The notes under the pieces: generated by a model
The model's input: the letters and a program-made list of their open reading frames with translations, nothing else
What the model was told of the DNA's origin: nothing
Database searches by the model: none
IMG/VR virus record: IMGVR_UViG_3300015262_000034
Span: 1 to 24,980 of that record
Direction: 5' to 3' (one strand)
DNA length: 24,980 nucleotides
DNA from: a virus
Made by a program: the position numbers and the translations under genes
In this document: positions 6,540-24,889 of the stretch, in pieces
Position numbering within the stretch: the first letter of the stretch is position 1
Layout: each line of letters begins with the position of its first letter

Positions 6540-7232
6540 TCAAAGCCTCGGGACGCTGGCGATGCCGGGGAATCCGCCAAAAGGCAGTTCACCATTCTCG
6601 CCGAAGCGCATCTTGCAGCCTCTCAGGGATCGGCTGCATTGATCCTTTGCTGGATCGCTGGTGGGTGCGTTCTGATAATCCGCAACAGCGCCGCCGGCAT
6701 ACCCGCATTCGCCTGAGCGGTAAGCCCATAGGCATGTTCCTGCAATCACTTGGCGCCGTGGCAGCTTTACTCCGTGCAGATCAAGCGGAGAGCCCAGATC
6801 AAACTCGATTGCGGCCGGCGTTTCATTCGCCTTACGCGTGATAATCCATGTTTCGACTGGGTACTCTTCCGAAGGGTTGGCCGTAGGGTTGCCAGCTACG
6901 AAGTTGACCGCATCAAGGTACTTGACCAGCGTTCGACGGCGCTTGAGCTTCGCGCCGAGCAGATCTTCGTACTGTCGGCATAGAGCCGAAATGGTCCCCC
7001 CGAAGTTGCCAACCTGTAGCTTTGGCCGGGCCGGCGAGCCCTGGCTTGGCGTTGCAAACTCAGAGGCATCGATTGGCCACGGAGTATAAGTGTTGCCCTG
7101 CCAGATAACCGTGCCGAGATTTTCGTTTACTTCAGCGCAGAATCGAAGTGTCTGGTCAGGCAGCACCAGTTCGAAGCCTTCCCAAATCGACAGCCCGCCA
7201 GTAAGTGAAAGCTGACCTTGAAGAGCGGTCAT
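6540..7232 (-). CDS. Minor tail protein, lambda L-like, Cys-rich C-terminus
   Basis: The 230-residue product matches the lambda minor tail protein L family across its length, with L-Q-V-G-N-F-G-G near residue 73 and E-E-Y-P-V-E-T-W-I near 124. The C-terminal domain holds four conserved Cys, C167, C176, C199 and C206, spaced C-x8-C-x22-C-x6-C, followed by L-P-F-G-G-F-P. In lambda L this region has been reported to bind an iron-sulfur cluster; here that is by analogy. It acts at the tail tip with M, K, I and J. The start overlaps the M stop as ATGA. A separate short gene at 18641-18883 repeats this Cys domain. Confidence 0.93.
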   Translation of the reverse strand: MTALQGQLSLTGGLSIWEGFELVLPDQTLRFCAEVNENLGTVIWQGNTYTPWPIDASEFATPSQGSPARPKLQVGNFGGTISALCRQYEDLLGAKLKRRRTLVKYLDAVNFVAGNPTANPSEEYPVETWIITRKANETPAAIEFDLGSPLDLHGVKLPRRQVIAGTCLWAYRSGECGYAGGAVADYQNAPTSDPAKDQCSRSLRGCKMRFGENGELPFGGFPGIASVPRL

Positions 7233-16187: not shown

Positions 16188-17360
16188 TTAGCCCAGCAGG
16201 ATGCCCGAGTGGCGAGGAGCGATCATTTTCACGCCCCATGCCAGGTTGATCTCATACCGCACTTGGCGCTTCTGCTTGTAGATGGCGAACTCGTAAGTCA
16301 GCCCCGACACAGGGTCGGTCACCAGCATTACGTCGTCAGCCGCATCGCCGCCGTCTGGCATCGCAGGTGCGCGAGTAGCCAGCTGGATAGCCGAACGGTG
16401 GAAGAACATGTTGCGGGTAGCGGCAGCCACAACGGTGATCGCCTTGGCGGCCGCGCTCATTGCAACGCGCAGGCCAGGCTCGGCGATGGTGATCGAACCA
16501 CCGTTGGAGGTGTCGGCATCACCCGAGACAACAACATACTTGTTGGTGTCGCCGGCGAAGGTGACGATGTCGCCTGCGAGGATGGTGCCAGTACCAGCAG
16601 AAGCCAGCGTGATGACGGTCGCGCCAACAGCGTAACCGGCAGCGTTGGTGGTGGCAGCAGCGCCAGTACCCACAACAACGCCTTCACGCACCTGCGCCGA
16701 GTTGTGCAGCAGCATGCCTTGGTATTCACCCAGCGCGCCTTGACGCAACAGGGCTTCGGACTGAGCGCCGCCAGTGTTGGTCTGGAACAGGGTCGACATC
16801 TTGCCGCGGATGTTCGCAACAGCCGCGCCACCGAGGACCATGTGCATGTCGCTTTGTGGCGCGCCGTTGTCGTCCAGGATCTTGCGGGCCTGGGCGAAGT
16901 CGCTCAGGTCGCCAGCAGTGCCGAACGGCGTGGTGCCGGGGGTGCCGTAGGCGCGCGAGGTATTGATGTGCAGAGCAGCGAGATCGGATTCGACTTCGTT
17001 GGTCAGGGTGCGGATGGCTTGGGCGATACGCTGGGCGTTGATGTCGCCCAGGGTGCCGGCGTTACGCAGGCCCAGAGTTTCCTCACCAGTGATGCCGAAC
17101 GGCACCGAACGCGCCTTGCTGATGGTCATCTGCACGTTGCCGATGGTCTGGTTCGGGGTGTCAGCAGCATAAGCCGCAGGAACCAGATCTTCAGCAGCCA
17201 TTGCGCCAACAACTGGCGAAACAACGGCTTGGCCGACAGCTGCACGCTCTGCAGTGGAGTCGCGGGATACGGCCGGGATGAAACCGACCAGCTCGCGGGA
17301 TACAACGTCCATCGCTTCCTGAATGGAAGGGATCAGACTGGTGAGGGTCAAAGTGCCCAT
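16188..17360 (-). CDS. Major capsid protein, P22 coat-like
   Basis: The 390-residue product follows the scaffold gene and has features of the P22 coat protein group within the HK97 fold: an N-terminal helix (L-I-P-S-I-Q-E-A-M-D-V-V-S-R-E), the E-loop-like region (Q-T-I-G-N-V-Q-M-T-I-S-K), then G-I-T-G-E-E-T near residue 90, a helix with Q-R-I-A-Q-A-I-R-T-L-T-N-E-V-E, an inserted beta-rich domain at about residues 225-300, and the C-terminal R-Y-E-I-N-L-A-W-G-V-K. The insertion domain is the part that sets P22-type coats apart. No cleavage site or protease gene is evident, in line with P22-type maturation. The start has GAGGT about 9 bases upstream. The length is slightly under P22 coat (430). 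Confidence 0.9.
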   Translation of the reverse strand: MGTLTLTSLIPSIQEAMDVVSRELVGFIPAVSRDSTAERAAVGQAVVSPVVGAMAAEDLVPAAYAADTPNQTIGNVQMTISKARSVPFGITGEETLGLRNAGTLGDINAQRIAQAIRTLTNEVESDLAALHINTSRAYGTPGTTPFGTAGDLSDFAQARKILDDNGAPQSDMHMVLGGAAVANIRGKMSTLFQTNTGGAQSEALLRQGALGEYQGMLLHNSAQVREGVVVGTGAAATTNAAGYAVGATVITLASAGTGTILAGDIVTFAGDTNKYVVVSGDADTSNGGSITIAEPGLRVAMSAAAKAITVVAAATRNMFFHRSAIQLATRAPAMPDGGDAADDVMLVTDPVSGLTYEFAIYKQKRQVRYEINLAWGVKMIAPRHSGILLG

Positions 17361-17373
17361 GCGGTGTTACCTC

Positions 17374-18129
17374 TTAATCGACAATCTTGATTTGCGCCTT
17401 GATCGCCGCTCGTTGATCGAGGGGGCTCATGGCTTCGTATTGGGTTCGTTTCATGGTCTTGGCCCCCATCTGCACGTTGCTCTGTTGCGAGCCACCGCCA
17501 TTGGCGTTGGCTGGGAACCAGTGCGGAGCCTTTTCTTTCATGTCGCTGAACCACTCCTTGAGCGTCAGCGGCTTGCCGTCCTTGCCGAATGCGTCTTTCA
17601 CGGCGACAGGGTTGCCCTCGTCGTCGAGCTTGAAGGTCGCACTGGCACGGAGCAGCGCGTCATCGATTGCGTACTGGTGGAGGCCAGCAGCGGTGGCTTC
17701 TGCGCGGATGCCGTTTTCAAGGACTCGGCGACTGAACTTGTCAGCCCGGGTCTCGGCAGCTTCGCGTGCGGTACGTTCTTTGGCGGTTTCCTGTTCGAAG
17801 CCGGCTTTCATGCGCGTGGTGCGCTTGTCGAGCACTTCGTCGATCTTGCCGGCAGCAATCAGGCCGGCTTCTTCGTCGTTGGCGAACTTCGAGAGGATGT
17901 TCCGAACCGCATCAGGGTCGATGCCTTCGAAACGAGCAGCGTCTTGTTTTGCCGCCTTGAGCGACCCCAGCAATTCACTGTTCTTGGTCTTGAGGCCAGT
18001 CACAGCCGCTTCAACAGCTGCTGCTACCTTGGCGTCGAAGTCCTGGGTGTCGTTGCCGCCACCGTTGTTATTGACGTCGCCACCAGTCTCTTCCGCCATC
18101 AGCGGATACCACTTGCCGAAAATAAACAT
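17374..18129 (-). CDS. Capsid scaffolding protein
   Basis: The 251-residue product is highly charged and helical, lies directly upstream of the capsid gene and has the typical scaffold layout. Residues 12-30 are disordered and Gly/Asn-rich, residues about 30-150 form long coiled-coil-like helix (A-K-V-A-A-A-V-E-A-A-V through T-A-R-E-A-A-E-T-R-A-D-K), a central part reads H-Q-Y-A-I-D-D-A-L-L-R-A and the C-terminus is basic, ending A-I-K-A-Q-I-K-I-V-D, which suits coat binding. It would fill the prohead and leave before packaging. The start at 18129 has AAGGGG 8 bases upstream; an ATG ten codons later lacks a site. Two terminators precede it. Confidence 0.85.
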   Translation of the reverse strand: MFIFGKWYPLMAEETGGDVNNNGGGNDTQDFDAKVAAAVEAAVTGLKTKNSELLGSLKAAKQDAARFEGIDPDAVRNILSKFANDEEAGLIAAGKIDEVLDKRTTRMKAGFEQETAKERTAREAAETRADKFSRRVLENGIRAEATAAGLHQYAIDDALLRASATFKLDDEGNPVAVKDAFGKDGKPLTLKEWFSDMKEKAPHWFPANANGGGSQQSNVQMGAKTMKRTQYEAMSPLDQRAAIKAQIKIVD

Positions 18130-18392: not shown

Positions 18393-18644
18393 TTACGTGA
18401 CAACAACGCGCTCCCCATTCAGCAGGCACACGACGCAAAGCAGCGCCTTCGTCCCGCCAGTTGGCTTGCCGTTCTTCATCATGACGCCGATCTTGGACTC
18501 GATCACTTCCCTGCCGCCACATCGATGGCACTGAACCATCGTCGCAGGCTTCGGCATCGCACGCACACGACGACGCACCTGCTCGGCCGTGGTATCCGGT
18601 GGAGCGGTGCCGTCGATTACGTGGAAGCGGTTTTTTTCGGTCAT
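18393..18644 (-). CDS. Small zinc-ribbon-like protein
   Basis: The ATG at 18644 overlaps the previous stop (ATGA) and gives 83 residues. The N-terminal third is Arg-rich (E-Q-V-R-R-R-V-R-A-M), followed by C39-H-R-C42 and C70-V-V-C73, two CxxC knuckles 27 residues apart, which should bind one zinc ion. Between them lies K-N-G-K-P-T-G-G-T-K. Proteins like this occur beside packaging genes in Pseudomonas phages, with no proven job that I know of. Nucleic acid binding is a fair guess from the zinc knuckles and basic charge. A longer frame starting upstream inside the preceding gene is rejected because the coupled start fits better. Confidence 0.75.
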   Translation of the reverse strand: MTEKNRFHVIDGTAPPDTTAEQVRRRVRAMPKPATMVQCHRCGGREVIESKIGVMMKNGKPTGGTKALLCVVCLLNGERVVVT

Positions 18645-18883
18645 GCCTTTGGCTTGAGATCGTCTTCGATTGCTGCGCGAGGGAATCCGCCAAATGGCAG
18701 CGTATCGCTGTCGGCGAAGCGCAGCTTGCAATCGGCCAATGTATTGTCGCACCGGTCTTTATCGCATGGGTTGCCTTGTGTGTCCGTGGACAGTGGCGGT
18801 CCTGAATACCCACATTCTGCTGACCGATAGGCCCAGTCGCAAGGCCACTCCTCCAGAACCTTCACCCCAGCTATTTCAGTCAT
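18641..18883 (-). CDS. Stand-alone copy of tail protein L Cys-rich C-terminal domain
   Basis: This 80-residue protein has C15-D-W-A-Y-R-S-A-E-C24-G-Y, C45, C52 and L-P-F-G-G-F-P. The spacings C-x8-C and C-x6-C and the final motif equal those at residues 167-222 of the L-like tail protein encoded at 6540-7232 (C-L-W-A-Y-R-S-G-E-C-G-Y and L-P-F-G-G-F-P). It lacks the rest of L. It has one extra Cys (C40). The L domain in lambda is reported to bind an iron-sulfur cluster, so metal binding is likely here. It lies between the MuF and zinc-ribbon genes in the head region, not with the tail genes. The ATG at 18883 follows AGAGG; the stop overlaps the next start. Confidence 0.82.
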   Translation of the reverse strand: MTEIAGVKVLEEWPCDWAYRSAECGYSGPPLSTDTQGNPCDKDRCDNTLADCKLRFADSDTLPFGGFPRAAIEDDLKPKA

Positions 18884-21429: not shown

Positions 21430-22704
21430 TTAGATTCTCAAAGGTGCGGTAGAGGCGGTGCGCTTGACGATCGGGAACAGGTGAGCCAGCGGGTAACCGC
21501 CAGCGTCGAGGACGTGATCGATTCCGCTGGACTTGTCGGGCATGCCATTCTTGTCGTAGGCCTGTTGTTCCAGGCCGTCAGTCAGATGCGGGCAGCGATG
21601 CGTGTTGACCTTGAAGCGCCGCTCGCCCTGTCCGTTGAGGATCAGTGCGTTGACGGCGTTCACGCGGTCGGCAATGGCAGGGTTCGTCGAGTTGACCCGA
21701 ACAGAAAGCCCTGCCTGCTTGATGATGCTAAGGTCCGACTCGCTGGCGTTCTTGCTGCTGGAGTTCTGCCCGGACGCATCAGGAAACACCTGAACTGCGT
21801 GACCATTGAGCTTGTATCGCTCATTGAACAGTGCGGCCATCTGCGGCGTATCGCGCCCATCGACGATCTCGTCAACTGCAATAGGCCAGCCATCACGCAA
21901 CACATAGACCACCGCGCTCATCTTCAGCCGGTTGAAGTCCATGCCGATCAGGACTGGCTCCCCCTCTTGCAGTGTCGCGTCAGAGTGGTTCAGCACCCTA
22001 TCGAAATCCGGGTACACACTGCCAGATGTCAGGTTGGTGAACTTGCCTTCAAGGTAGGCCGAGATCAGCGCCGGCGGGTAACTCTCGCGCAGGCTCTGCT
22101 CGTAGTCCTCAGGCAGGAACGGGTTGGAACTGGTCGCCGCCTGGATCATCACGTAGCCAGGCTTTGGATTGCGGCCCCAGGTGTCGTAGACGAACTGGTA
22201 GCCTTCAGGTGTCGTGTAGGCCGAGACCCGGTTGAATGGTTGCTCAAGGCCAGAAGGACGCTGCCTGTTCCGCGCAATGATCTTGCGCCAGGCCATCTGC
22301 GCCTGAACCTTCTTCAGCGTGTCGATCTCGTCGACGTGCGCCCGGTATGACTCGTAACCGATGATGCGGGCCGGATTCTCCAGCGTCCGCAGCACGAAGT
22401 CGCCGCAGTTGGGCGAACTCGTGTAGATGATGTTCTCTTGCTTGTTGTACTTGTAACGGATACCCATGTCCGAAAGCTTCTCTTCCATGCGCGGAGCAAG
22501 GATGAGGCGCACAAGGTCATAGGTCGGCTCGTACAGTGCGATCAAGGCGCTGGACGATGCCAGGGCGTCTCTCAGCGCGCAGTTGGCAAGAGTTTCAGTC
22601 TTGCCCGTACCGAATCCGCCGACAAACGCCGGATACTTATCGGTCAGTTGATAGAAGTCAGCCTGAGGCTGCGTCATCTGCAACCGCAGCGTCCTTCCTT
22701 CCAC
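21430..22704 (-). CDS. terL: Terminase large subunit
   Basis: The 424-residue protein has the complete packaging motor plus nuclease layout. Walker A is G-G-F-G-T-G-K-T at residues 29-36, Walker B with catalytic Glu is A-H-V-D125-E126, and the coupling motif is T-S-S-N near 191-194. The RNase H-like nuclease domain has Asp256 in G-M-D-F-N, a second Asp in F-P-D-A-S near 314, and Asp396/Asp400 in G-I-D-H-V-L-D. It cuts concatemers and drives DNA into the prohead. The GTG at 22704, with GAGGTGG upstream and a 47-base overlap with the small subunit gene, is the likely start; an ATG nine codons on is the alternative. The strategy (cos or headful) cannot be told from this sequence. Confidence 0.95.
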   Translation of the reverse strand: MEGRTLRLQMTQPQADFYQLTDKYPAFVGGFGTGKTETLANCALRDALASSSALIALYEPTYDLVRLILAPRMEEKLSDMGIRYKYNKQENIIYTSSPNCGDFVLRTLENPARIIGYESYRAHVDEIDTLKKVQAQMAWRKIIARNRQRPSGLEQPFNRVSAYTTPEGYQFVYDTWGRNPKPGYVMIQAATSSNPFLPEDYEQSLRESYPPALISAYLEGKFTNLTSGSVYPDFDRVLNHSDATLQEGEPVLIGMDFNRLKMSAVVYVLRDGWPIAVDEIVDGRDTPQMAALFNERYKLNGHAVQVFPDASGQNSSSKNASESDLSIIKQAGLSVRVNSTNPAIADRVNAVNALILNGQGERRFKVNTHRCPHLTDGLEQQAYDKNGMPDKSSGIDHVLDAGGYPLAHLFPIVKRTASTAPLRI

Positions 22705-23197
22705 CTACCACCTCGATCTCGATTCTGGTCACCGGTGGCAACTCTGGAGGATTCGTTTTCAGCAGCTCGGCGCGGGTTCGCTCAAGGCTTTCAATGCGAG
22801 CAGTCAGGCGATCGATCAAGCCGGAGTAGTCGCGCACCTTGCTGGTGGTGGTTGTTCCGCCATGCTCGCCAGTCTCATGCTTCTCGCTGTCGACCTCCAG
22901 CTCATTGCCGAACTCGTTCTCGCGGCCCAGCGCACGCATCAATCGAATGCGCGTCAGGCGCAACTCGTCATCGACGCGGCCAAGCTCAATGCCAGCGAGC
23001 GCATCGTTCTCTTCATCGGTCAGGAACTTGCTGTAGATGGATCCGGGCTTCGCGGCCTTCCTGTTGCCAGTCTGATCACCTGGAACCTTCGGGCCACTAC
23101 TCTTGCCGCCGTGGAGCTTGCAGCGAGGGGAACCCGGTACTGCGTGACGCTTGCATGGTTCCCCGTTGCCGCGCTTTGATGCGCCGCATAGGGCCAT
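22658..23197 (-). CDS. terS: Terminase small subunit, HGG-motif type
   Basis: Starting from the ATG at 23197 (GAGG 8 bases upstream) the product is 179 residues; an ATG four codons earlier has no site. The N-terminus has C4-G-A-S-K, C15-K-R-H, and C26-K-L-H29-G-G-K, a C-x10-C-x10-C-x2-H pattern that is widely found in phage small terminase-type proteins ending in HGG. The middle is helical (E-L-R-L-T-R-I-R-L-M-R-A-L) and a second helix (R-L-T-A-R-I-E-S-L-E-R-T) would aid oligomer formation. It lies immediately upstream of and overlaps the large subunit gene. It should bind the packaging start site and recruit the large subunit. The gene pair, not only the motif, supports the call. Confidence 0.85.
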   Translation of the reverse strand: MALCGASKRGNGEPCKRHAVPGSPRCKLHGGKSSGPKVPGDQTGNRKAAKPGSIYSKFLTDEENDALAGIELGRVDDELRLTRIRLMRALGRENEFGNELEVDSEKHETGEHGGTTTTSKVRDYSGLIDRLTARIESLERTRAELLKTNPPELPPVTRIEIEVVGGRKDAAVADDAASG

Positions 23198-23235
23198 AGT
23201 CAGCCTCATTCATGGGGTTCGGTTTTCGCAACGAT

Positions 23236-23273
23236 TCATTCAATGCATTCGAACGTCATTCAATGATCATTCG
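23236..23273. repeat. Direct repeat cluster (CATTCAATG / CATTCG) upstream of the small terminase gene
   Basis: The plus strand has TCATTCAATG at 23236-23245 and again at 23256-23265, exactly 20 bases apart (about two helical turns), each followed by CATTCG (directly, or after AT). CATTC occurs four times in the cluster and a fifth time at 23207-23211. It covers the end of the 71-residue gene and most of the 70-base gap before terS. Confidence 0.85.
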
Positions 23274-23482
23274 ATGTCTACAACTTCGATGTGGCCCCAC
23301 ACTGGATGGATGTCAGCGTGCTCGCCGTCACTCGATTTGATCGGATCGTCATACACGACGGCAATGCCTGCGCTGGTATCGGCGTAGATGACGAATCGTG
23401 TCCGCTCGCCATCGATGAACACTAGGCGTCTGCCCCGGCCATCATTGAACCAATGAACATGGCTTCCTGATTGGCCGCTCAT
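23267..23482 (-). CDS. 71-residue protein of unknown function
   Basis: The ATG at 23482 overlaps the stop of the HslV-like gene (ATGA), so the two are translationally coupled. The protein is mostly short beta-strands (R-L-V-F-I-D-G, R-F-V-I-Y-A-D, G-I-A-V-V-Y-D-D) with several His and Asp residues (S-H-V-H-W at the start, H-A-D-I-H-P-V-W-G-H-I near the end). There is no signal peptide, membrane helix or Cys. It could be a small beta-barrel partner for the hydrolase. No family is recognised. The stop lies inside the repeat cluster upstream of the terminase genes. Confidence 0.72.
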   Translation of the reverse strand: MSGQSGSHVHWFNDGRGRRLVFIDGERTRFVIYADTSAGIAVVYDDPIKSSDGEHADIHPVWGHIEVVDIE

Positions 23483-23913
23483 TCTTCCACCTTCACAGTG
23501 AGCGTTCTGATCTTGCCGCCAGTGCAGCTGTCACGCTTCATGGCCATCTCTACGGCTTGGTAGGCAGATGCACCCATGTCCATTGCGGTGTAAGCGTGAT
23601 CGGAGCCACTGCCTAGCGCATAGGGACGATCAGGAAGCACCTGACTCTTCTCAATGCCGTCTTCGTCGTCGTGGCTGATGTACCAGACCTCACCCTCGAC
23701 CACTACCAGTGCACTCATCTGCACGGAGGTTTGAGGCTCACCGAAATAGGCATCAAGCAGCTTGTGAGCACCACTGAGGCTACCGCAGACAACGAACTTC
23801 ACCCCTTCACGCTCCAGGCACTTCTCGAAGTCGTCATAGACAATGGTGCCGCTACTGGTGGTTGCTCGACCGTCATAGGCGATGATGCCGTCCTTGTAGG
23901 CGATGGTCGTCAT
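23479..23913 (-). CDS. HslV/proteasome-like N-terminal nucleophile hydrolase
   Basis: The 144-residue product starts M-T-T-I-A-Y-K-D-G-I-I-A-Y-D-G-R, the pattern of HslV and other proteasome-type subunits. Removing Met exposes Thr2 as the nucleophile; Asp14 and Lys31 (D-D-F-E-K) fall near the expected catalytic Asp and Lys; Y-A-L-G-S-G-S-D at about 97-104 matches the conserved GSG region, and M-D-M-G-A-S-A-Y-Q-A-V-E-M-A matches the helix after it, with C-T-G-G-K-I near the end. It is shorter than HslV (about 174). No HslU-type ATPase is seen in the window. The target is unknown; the scaffold or a host protein are possible. The ATG has AAGGTG upstream, and the stop is coupled to the 71-residue gene. 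Confidence 0.82.
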   Translation of the reverse strand: MTTIAYKDGIIAYDGRATTSSGTIVYDDFEKCLEREGVKFVVCGSLSGAHKLLDAYFGEPQTSVQMSALVVVEGEVWYISHDDEDGIEKSQVLPDRPYALGSGSDHAYTAMDMGASAYQAVEMAMKRDSCTGGKIRTLTVKVEE

Positions 23914-23933
23914 TAGGTTTCACCTTTTGGCAC

Positions 23934-24104
23934 TTACTGTTGAGTGTCGACCAACTTGACCGTGATGCCGCGAGCGACCCACCAGCCCACCCTGTCCATG
24001 TTTGGCTCTAGGCCAGTCAGGTCACAGGCGAAGCCGATGGCACGCAAGTAGACGCGCAACCACCAGGCCAGCTTGATGCTTACCGCGATGCTGCAGGTCT
24101 TCAT
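23934..24104 (-). CDS. 56-residue protein with WW-R-Y core (small paralogue B)
   Basis: The ATG at 24104 overlaps the previous stop (ATGA). The 56-residue protein reads M-K-T-C-S-I-A-V, then L-A-W-W-L-R-V-Y-L-R-A-I-G-F-A-C-D-L-T-G-L-E-P and W-W-V-A-R-G-I-T-V-K-L. The middle is one amphipathic or membrane-touching helix with paired Trp. It resembles the preceding small protein in the W-W-x-R-x-Y and G-L-E stretch. I recall similar small proteins in Pseudomonas phages with no known function. Codon usage and tight coupling support it as a real gene. Confidence 0.7.
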   Translation of the reverse strand: MKTCSIAVSIKLAWWLRVYLRAIGFACDLTGLEPNMDRVGWWVARGITVKLVDTQQ

Positions 24105-24280
24105 TGCTCACCCTCGTCGCGCGGCTCGATCTCGCGATACCGGGTCGCCTTCCGCCCTTGGGCTTCGAGCTTCTCGGTGTCGACTTCCAGGCCTGCCATG
24201 TAGGCGAAGGCGTTCACGGATACCACGTACAGACGGAACCACCATGGGTGATAGGCAGTCAGGAATACTTTCCGGGCCAT
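24101..24280 (-). CDS. 59-residue protein with WW-R-Y core (small paralogue A)
   Basis: The frame from the ATG at 24280 encodes 59 residues: M-A-R-K-V-F-L-T-A-Y-H-P-W-W-F-R-L-Y-V-V, then V-N-A-F-A-Y-M-A-G-L-E-V-D and an acidic/basic tail (K-A-T-R-Y-R-E-I-E-P-R-D-E). A weak GGTGA lies 4 bases before the ATG. The W-W-x-R-L-Y and A-G-L-E pattern is shared with the next gene, pointing to tandem duplication. The frame stays open upstream for at least 30 codons with coding-like sequence but no usual start codon, so the true start is uncertain. The function is unknown; a helical membrane-associated protein near the holin candidates is plausible. Confidence 0.65.
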   Translation of the reverse strand: MARKVFLTAYHPWWFRLYVVSVNAFAYMAGLEVDTEKLEAQGRKATRYREIEPRDEGEQ

Positions 24281-24335: not shown

Positions 24336-24563
24336 TTAAACGGTTGGTTTGTCGGCGACCGGTGTGATGCTCGACTGAGGGATCGCGCGCACTACAGCGA
24401 TGGCGGCCGCGAGTAAGCCATTCACCGCGGCGAACAGGCCCGGGCTCACGAGCGCCTGGAGCGATGGCCAGAAATACGCGATGGTGTTGAGCAGCGCCAG
24501 AAGGCCAGCCAGTTGGACGCTGTACATCTTCCAGAGCTGCTGCCATTGGGGAATCAGGTTCAT
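24336..24563 (-). CDS. Small membrane protein, holin candidate 2
   Basis: The ATG at 24563 overlaps the preceding stop (ATGA) and has GAGG 10 bases upstream; it gives 75 residues, M-N-L-I-P-Q-W-Q-Q-L-W-K-M-Y-S-V. Two hydrophobic segments follow, about residues 16-32 (L-A-G-L-L-A-L-L-N-T-I-A-Y-F-W) and 42-60 (F-A-A-V-N-G-L-L-A-A-A-I-A-V-V), then a short polar tail. The small size, two membrane helices and pairing with another membrane gene fit a class II type holin or holin-like protein, as found in this place in many Pseudomonas phages. No activity can be shown from sequence. Confidence 0.75.
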   Translation of the reverse strand: MNLIPQWQQLWKMYSVQLAGLLALLNTIAYFWPSLQALVSPGLFAAVNGLLAAAIAVVRAIPQSSITPVADKPTV

Positions 24564-24889
24564 GTCTTGTCCGCCTCTTTGGTGTTGTTCAGGCATTGCT
24601 CGCAGTGCAGGTATCGGCACAGCCAGCCCTTGACGATGGGCCAGTGATTGGCGACGAACCAGTGCCTCAGTCCAGCCAATGCCAGTGCTCCGTGAAATGT
24701 GACGCCGGCAGTGGTCGGGGAGACAAACACCGTCTCGGCCCGAGTCACGATCGCAAAGCCGGCCAGCATGATCGTCGCGTAGATGACCTTGCCGACAATC
24801 CCGTCATGGACACGCGAGCTCAACATGCACCACATCGCCCATAGGCTGATGATGCCAACGAACACGGTGCTCAACGTTTGAATGCTCAT
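24560..24889 (-). CDS. Membrane protein, holin candidate 1
   Basis: The 109-residue protein has strong hydrophobic segments at about residues 5-23 (L-S-T-V-F-V-G-I-I-S-L-W-A-M-W) and 33-50 (V-I-Y-A-T-I-M-L-A-G-F-A-I-V), and a weaker one at about 61-80 (T-F-H-G-A-L-A-L-A-G-L-R-H-W-F). The C-terminus is polar with H-C-E-Q-C. The start follows GGAGGGAG, 3 bases after the upstream stop. It is coupled to the next membrane gene. Two adjacent small membrane genes before the terminase genes suggest a holin/antiholin or holin plus accessory pair; that role is inferred from context. Confidence 0.72.
   Translation of the reverse strand: MSIQTLSTVFVGIISLWAMWCMLSSRVHDGIVGKVIYATIMLAGFAIVTRAETVFVSPTTAGVTFHGALALAGLRHWFVANHWPIVKGWLCRYLHCEQCLNNTKEADKT

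Follow-up and report, generated by a model that had tools for sequence, protein, structure and literature searches.

The window, the whole stretch of virus DNA that was analysed, is 24,980 bases long. An earlier note on it had described an open reading frame of 144 amino acids at 23479-23913 on the minus strand, and this reading frame was found exactly as described. Its product is a small phage relative of the protein-cutting subunit of the proteasome with an intact active site, and it is referred to here as PPH. The genes around it lie on a single strand in the order holin-like genes, two small genes, PPH, a gene of 71 amino acids, and the small and large subunits of the terminase; the same-strand run then continues with a portal gene (DUF4055), a MuF-like protein, a scaffold, a P22-type coat protein and lambda-like tail genes. 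The features of the locus are as follows.

24560..24889 (-): holin-like gene (PHROG 2508)
24336..24620 (-): holin-like gene (PHROG 1356 / Pfam DUF7940)
24101..24280 (-): second small gene, weakly PHROG 9557-like (E 0.015)
23934..24104 (-): small gene 5' of PPH with a hydrophobic stretch (PHROG 9557, E 1.3e-17)
23914..23933 (-): leader with a Shine-Dalgarno-like AAGGTG directly 5' of the PPH ATG, seen in the sequence
23479..23913 (-): PPH, a 144-aa proteasome-like Ntn hydrolase (PHROG 1040 match, AlphaFold2 model, superposition, conservation)
in 23479..23913 (-): PPH active-site residues Thr2 (nucleophile), Asp14, Lys31, Gly44, Ser102, Asp128 and Thr131
23479..23482 (-): overlap of PPH and the 71-aa gene, 4 nt, stop/start ATGA (TGA/ATG), from the sequence and the ORF list
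23267..23482 (-): 71-aa gene, PHROG 3540 (E 4e-19), function unknown; a loose neighbour and not an obligate partner
22658..23209 (-): terminase small subunit (PHROG 1889, E 3e-11)
21430..22704 (-): terminase large subunit (Pfam PF03237, E 2.2e-14; PF17289, E 5.3e-14)
17374..18129 (-): scaffold protein (Pfam Phage_scaffold, E 5e-4, under its cut-off), the candidate substrate in a hypothesis disfavoured below
16188..17360 (-): P22-type coat protein (Pfam P22_CoatProtein, E 3.6e-11)

The coat protein match agrees with the P22-type capsid that had been proposed for this virus. The tandem small genes at 23934-24104 and 24101-24280 (-) overlap each other, and the PHROG 9557 family stands 5' of PPH in about one third of the loci.

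The PPH protein is matched end to end, over residues 1-144, by PHROG 1040, annotated as 'peptidase HslV family' (E 5.1e-40). A Pfam search with the 144-aa protein returned nothing significant, and an NCBIfam search at E<=1 matched no HslV model; the sole match was TIGR03634 (archaeal proteasome beta), which scored 17.5 bits and so stayed far below its curated cut-off of 224. The PHROG 1040 match, the 334 relatives found in viral contigs and a low dN/dS ratio indicate that the reading frame is not a chance one. The PPH family was described in 2021 by Fuchs, Alva and Lupas as proteins of about 140 residues that tailed phages and prophages encode; they lack a propeptide and helix H2 but have helices H1, H3 and H4, a Thr-Asp-Lys triad and an oxyanion Gly (PMC8665760). 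The window protein has 144 residues, begins with MTT and is encoded alongside terminase, portal, coat and tail genes; the only helices in its AlphaFold2 model are at 46-56, 104-112 and 117-127, with H2 absent, and its catalytic set consists of T2, D14, K31 and the oxyanion G44. Thus, every listed PPH feature that could be checked is present, no distinguishing difference was seen, and the window protein is an ordinary member of the family. From length, phage context and motifs, and not from the authors' alignment, we infer that PHROG 1040 corresponds to PPH. In the literature, nothing on the function of PPH was found beyond PMC8665760.

An AlphaFold2 model of PPH, built with 32 homologues as input, reached a pLDDT of 93.8 and a pTM of 0.88. 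The best PDB matches returned by Foldseek were proteasome beta subunits, HslV and BPH. In VIA-align superpositions, the model fitted E. coli HslV with Z 16.3 (2.5 Å over 136 residues), yeast beta5 with Z of about 15.2 and BPH with Z 15.1. The Ntn sandwich had been named beforehand as the fold on which the earlier reading depended, and the predicted fold is that of an Ntn hydrolase that superposes on HslV. Thr2, Asp14, Lys31 and the GSG motif were located at the positions previously assigned to them, and residue 2 of the model superposes on the catalytic residue 1 (Thr1) of HslV, proteasome beta and BPH, which places Thr2 at the position of the nucleophile once Met1 is removed. We regard the predicted fold and intact active site as very nearly certain. 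The absence of helix H2 may alter ring assembly or prevent it.

A search of PDB sequences with the PPH family profile found proteasome beta chains (best E 1.8e-8), with beta5-type chains aligned. In this alignment, the PPH motifs AyDSR, GSGs and RDxxTGG fall on the beta motifs containing D17, R19, K33, S129, D166 and S169. Structure ranks HslV first, with gaps of about 1 Z unit, while the tie of the sequence to proteasome beta is clearer. The label 'HslV-like' holds in that HslV is the nearest solved fold, but the sequence motifs (AxDSR, GSGS, RDxxTGG) are those of proteasome beta, and NCBIfam does not assign the protein to HslV. With HslV (ClpQ), PPH shares the Ntn fold, the Met-Thr-Thr-Ile start, the Asp and Lys of the triad and the GSG; however, it is about 30 residues shorter, lacks H2, carries the C-terminal RDxxTGG of proteasome beta type, and has neither an NCBIfam HslV match nor a recognised HslU gene in the window. 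With the 20S proteasome beta subunit, it shares the equivalents of Thr1, Asp17, Arg19, Lys33, Ser129, Asp166 and Ser169, as well as the best PDB sequence matches, but it is shorter and has no propeptide, no alpha subunit and no H2. BPH of Thiobacillus denitrificans (5OVS/5OVT), a group I relative with the same Ntn fold and no known unfoldase, is a longer product of a bacterial gene with a long acidic pore loop, whereas PPH in the window is a phage gene product.

The earlier note had remarked that a partner ATPase is missing from the window, and no HslU-type ATPase could be made out among the genes of this 24,980-base virus fragment. PPH might borrow HslU from the host, or mix with host HslV, and so redirect ATP-dependent degradation to chosen proteins. 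The nearest solved folds are HslV chains, HslUV complexes included; no phage unfoldase accompanies PPH; and 33 of 35 cellular PPH loci are in genomes of Pseudomonas, which carry HslUV. Nevertheless, the proteasome-beta-like rather than HslV-like sequence motifs and the missing helix H2 speak against this scenario, and we consider it unlikely. A second possibility is that PPH is an Ntn hydrolase but no degradative protease, acting instead as a specific ligase or processing enzyme of the connectase kind. The proteasome-like superfamily contains the monomeric ligase connectase, and new quaternary structures in it were expected by Fuchs et al. (PMC8665760); PPH itself is minimal. However, PPH retains the full catalytic network of proteasome beta, Asp128 and Thr131 included, and its model has no connectase-type helical S3/S4 insertion; this possibility is distinctly unlikely.

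The conservation of the active site had been put forward as a check of the reading, and no homologue without Thr2 was encountered. Thr2, Gly44, Gly101, Gly103 and Asp128 were invariant in all 133 aligned homologues, divergent ones included; this count was made with the initial Met assigned by script. Nearly invariant were Lys31 (132 of 133), Asp14 and Ser102 (131 of 133 each) and Thr or Ser at position 131 (132 of 133). The single Lys31 exception, in a Caulobacter phage, is probably a misalignment, and the two homologues without Asp14 have a Tyr (L073/L010) and, in a Vibrio phage, a Glu. The Tyr-bearing gene, at 3998-4426 of L010 and the same in L073, is otherwise intact and is the sole such case among the close relatives. 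In the unedited data, M/V/L-TT is the start of 124 of the 125 PPH loci, the remaining one being a truncated match, and this direct start indicates that there is no propeptide. The dN/dS ratio between PPH and relatives of 95-98% identity was about 0.03-0.07. Since purifying selection is strong and the active site is among the most conserved positions, PPH is most plausibly a functioning enzyme.

The 71-residue gene to which the earlier note had PPH coupled belongs to PHROG 3540, and the overlap of 4 nt between the two reading frames makes translational coupling plausible. In several other phages, an overlap of 4 nt joins a PHROG 3540 gene to the start of a PPH gene that follows it. From these overlaps, one could suppose that the two genes form a dedicated pair of an enzyme with its adaptor, inhibitor or antitoxin. 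The wider distribution does not bear this out. First, the idea that the 71-residue gene always accompanies PPH was contradicted, as a PHROG 3540 gene lies near PPH in only 13 of 125 distinct PPH loci. Second, the order varies: in those 13 loci, it is mostly upstream of PPH, while in the window it is downstream, and a near relative of the window (L188) has the order PHROG 3540, PPH, terminase. Third, among 44 close PHROG 3540 homologues, 15 have PPH within 5 kb and 29 do not. Finally, an overlap of this kind with the start of PPH is seen for many small genes of unrelated families. On these grounds, the fixed pair is dismissed, the coupling is dense packing in a variable region, and the proposal that the 71-residue gene serves PPH as its own adaptor or inhibitor finds no support in the gene distribution; we consider a dedicated pair extremely improbable. 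Another fixed upstream partner was also sought among the genes that overlap the PPH start, which belong to PHROG 9557, 3540 and 15190, to lysozymes, to short membrane proteins and to many other unrelated families, and the candidate was rejected.

PPH lies a short way upstream of the genes for terminase, portal, scaffold and coat, and the head genes examined in the window include no further recognisable prohead protease. Both observations would fit a capsid or scaffold protease that removes the scaffold or trims a head protein of the P22-type capsid. Phages sampled by scaffold and by terminase, independently of PPH, were also considered. A capsid maturation protease should be present with every copy of the same scaffold and coat, but PPH is absent from the whole records of L186 (scaffold 95% identical, 50.8 kb) and L191 (82%, 54.5 kb), whose completeness is uncertified. 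These two and six further records without PPH (48.9-54.7 kb), likewise of uncertified completeness, match PPH-bearing relatives in length. Of the 26 loci whose TerL shares 80% identity or more and whose upstream DNA is long enough, 12 carried PPH at the slot and 14 lacked it. The whole records of 17 relatives in which the slot holds no PPH did not contain one elsewhere either; the completeness of these records is again uncertified. In addition, PPH loci divide between two families of major head proteins (32 versus 33 loci) with zero overlap. Thus, PPH looks optional for the same head machinery. The suggestion that PPH serves scaffold turnover is weakened by these results, since some phages with a near-identical scaffold or terminase have no PPH, and since the capsids found together with PPH belong to different families. 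Moreover, the P22-type scaffold is normally released intact. In the PAK_P3 myovirus, PPH lies near DNA ligase and helicase genes, and in Shewanella phage 3/49 it stands among replication genes, which also argues against a capsid protease. Taken together, we regard this function as very unlikely. PPH as a virion component was rejected too, on weak evidence: the text on the PAK_P3 virion proteome names structural-region proteins together with gp160, gp166 and gp72, and not the PPH product (PMC4309531). The expression class of PPH in PAK_P3 is not given in the main text of PMC4933390.

Downstream sequence of 3.5 kb or more was present at 113 PPH loci, and 102 of these have one of two large-terminase families there; the sample was chosen by similarity to the window and so mostly describes Pseudomonas-type phages. 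Several different types of terminase small subunit stand between PPH and the large terminase. Elsewhere, PPH adjoins a terminase gene (Caulobacter CcrSC), lies between the head-completion and head-closure genes, that is, among head-tail connector genes (Vibrio phage 1.147.O), or is near holin and spanin genes (some other phages). A divergent member is found in Jersey-type Salmonella phages and in E. coli phages such as Sciku and 590B. This divergent lineage, at 1964-2395 of L265, has FDxxTDG instead of RDxxTGG and matches 264 Salmonella phage records as well as E. coli phages. The presence of PPH among connector or replication genes in other phages indicates that a late accessory role is not general.

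The slot that separates the lysis genes from the packaging genes behaves like a site of interchangeable cargo, comparable with the bor and lom genes of lambda. In a blastn comparison of the window with L191, the leader that precedes PPH in the window (23914..23933) was found before a different gene, that of a HExxH protein, and other relatives have other small genes in the slot. The slot of L191 (3679-4089, 136 aa) and that of L186 (3137-3538) hold a homologous HExxH protein (PHROG 882, with weak SprT-like similarity). PF18894 (PhageMetallopep) occurs near PPH in 40 of 130 loci, mostly as the next gene after it; in L122 and the 39 further loci, this putative phage metallopeptidase, with HELYH, adjoins PPH or lies near it. 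PHROG 513 names the PF18894 protein a transposase, which seems to be a mislabel. That metallopeptidases generally substitute for PPH in a 'peptidase slot' was considered and found unsupported, because, of the 51 loci in the terminase-sampled set whose slot holds no PPH, only three had an HExxH ORF upstream, and two of the three look accidental.

Proteasome relatives are rare in viruses, and the results place two new constraints on PPH function: the active site hardly differs even between very dissimilar phages, and phages with nearly identical head genes may carry the gene or lack it. Together, these constraints speak for an accessory proteolytic role and against capsid maturation. With somewhat more confidence than doubt, we favour the reading that PPH is a threonine peptidase, probably a homo-oligomer, and an optional accessory of the late operon in the holin-terminase slot that most likely modulates host or competitor proteins. 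Under this reading, Met1 would be cleaved off by the methionine aminopeptidase of the host, leaving Thr2 exposed, which is also what happens in bacterial HslV. The free Thr2 would then serve as nucleophile and general base, helped by Asp14, Lys31, Ser102, Asp128 and Thr131, while Gly44 would contribute to the oxyanion hole. As the examples of HslV and BPH suggest, the enzyme probably acts as a homo-oligomer. Because no unfoldase gene travels with PPH, it would cut short or already unfolded polypeptides or borrow a host unfoldase. Judging from the position in the operon, expression would be late, and PPH would most likely act, late in infection, on proteins of the host or of competitors and not in building the virion. 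A bolder version, which we hold only tentatively and think rather unlikely, is that PPH works as a stand-alone viral mini-proteasome, that is, a minimal threonine peptidase without H2 and without an ATPase of its own, carried from phage to phage as an interchangeable accessory gene, which eliminates particular proteins of the host or of competitors late in infection. To our knowledge, no described viral system works in this way. The divergent PPH genes in E. coli phages, such as those of Sciku and 590B, would make the question of function testable in laboratory strains.

One further observation concerns the head genes of the window. An ORF of 80 amino acids (18641-18883, minus strand) is flanked by the MuF-like head gene on one side and the gene for the scaffold on the other. 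It repeats, as a separate protein, the Cys-rich C-terminal portion of the lambda gpL-like tail protein that the window encodes at 6540-7232, with 50% identity over 60 aa (E 7e-18; PHROG 18), and a gpL-type Cys-rich domain amid head genes was unexpected.
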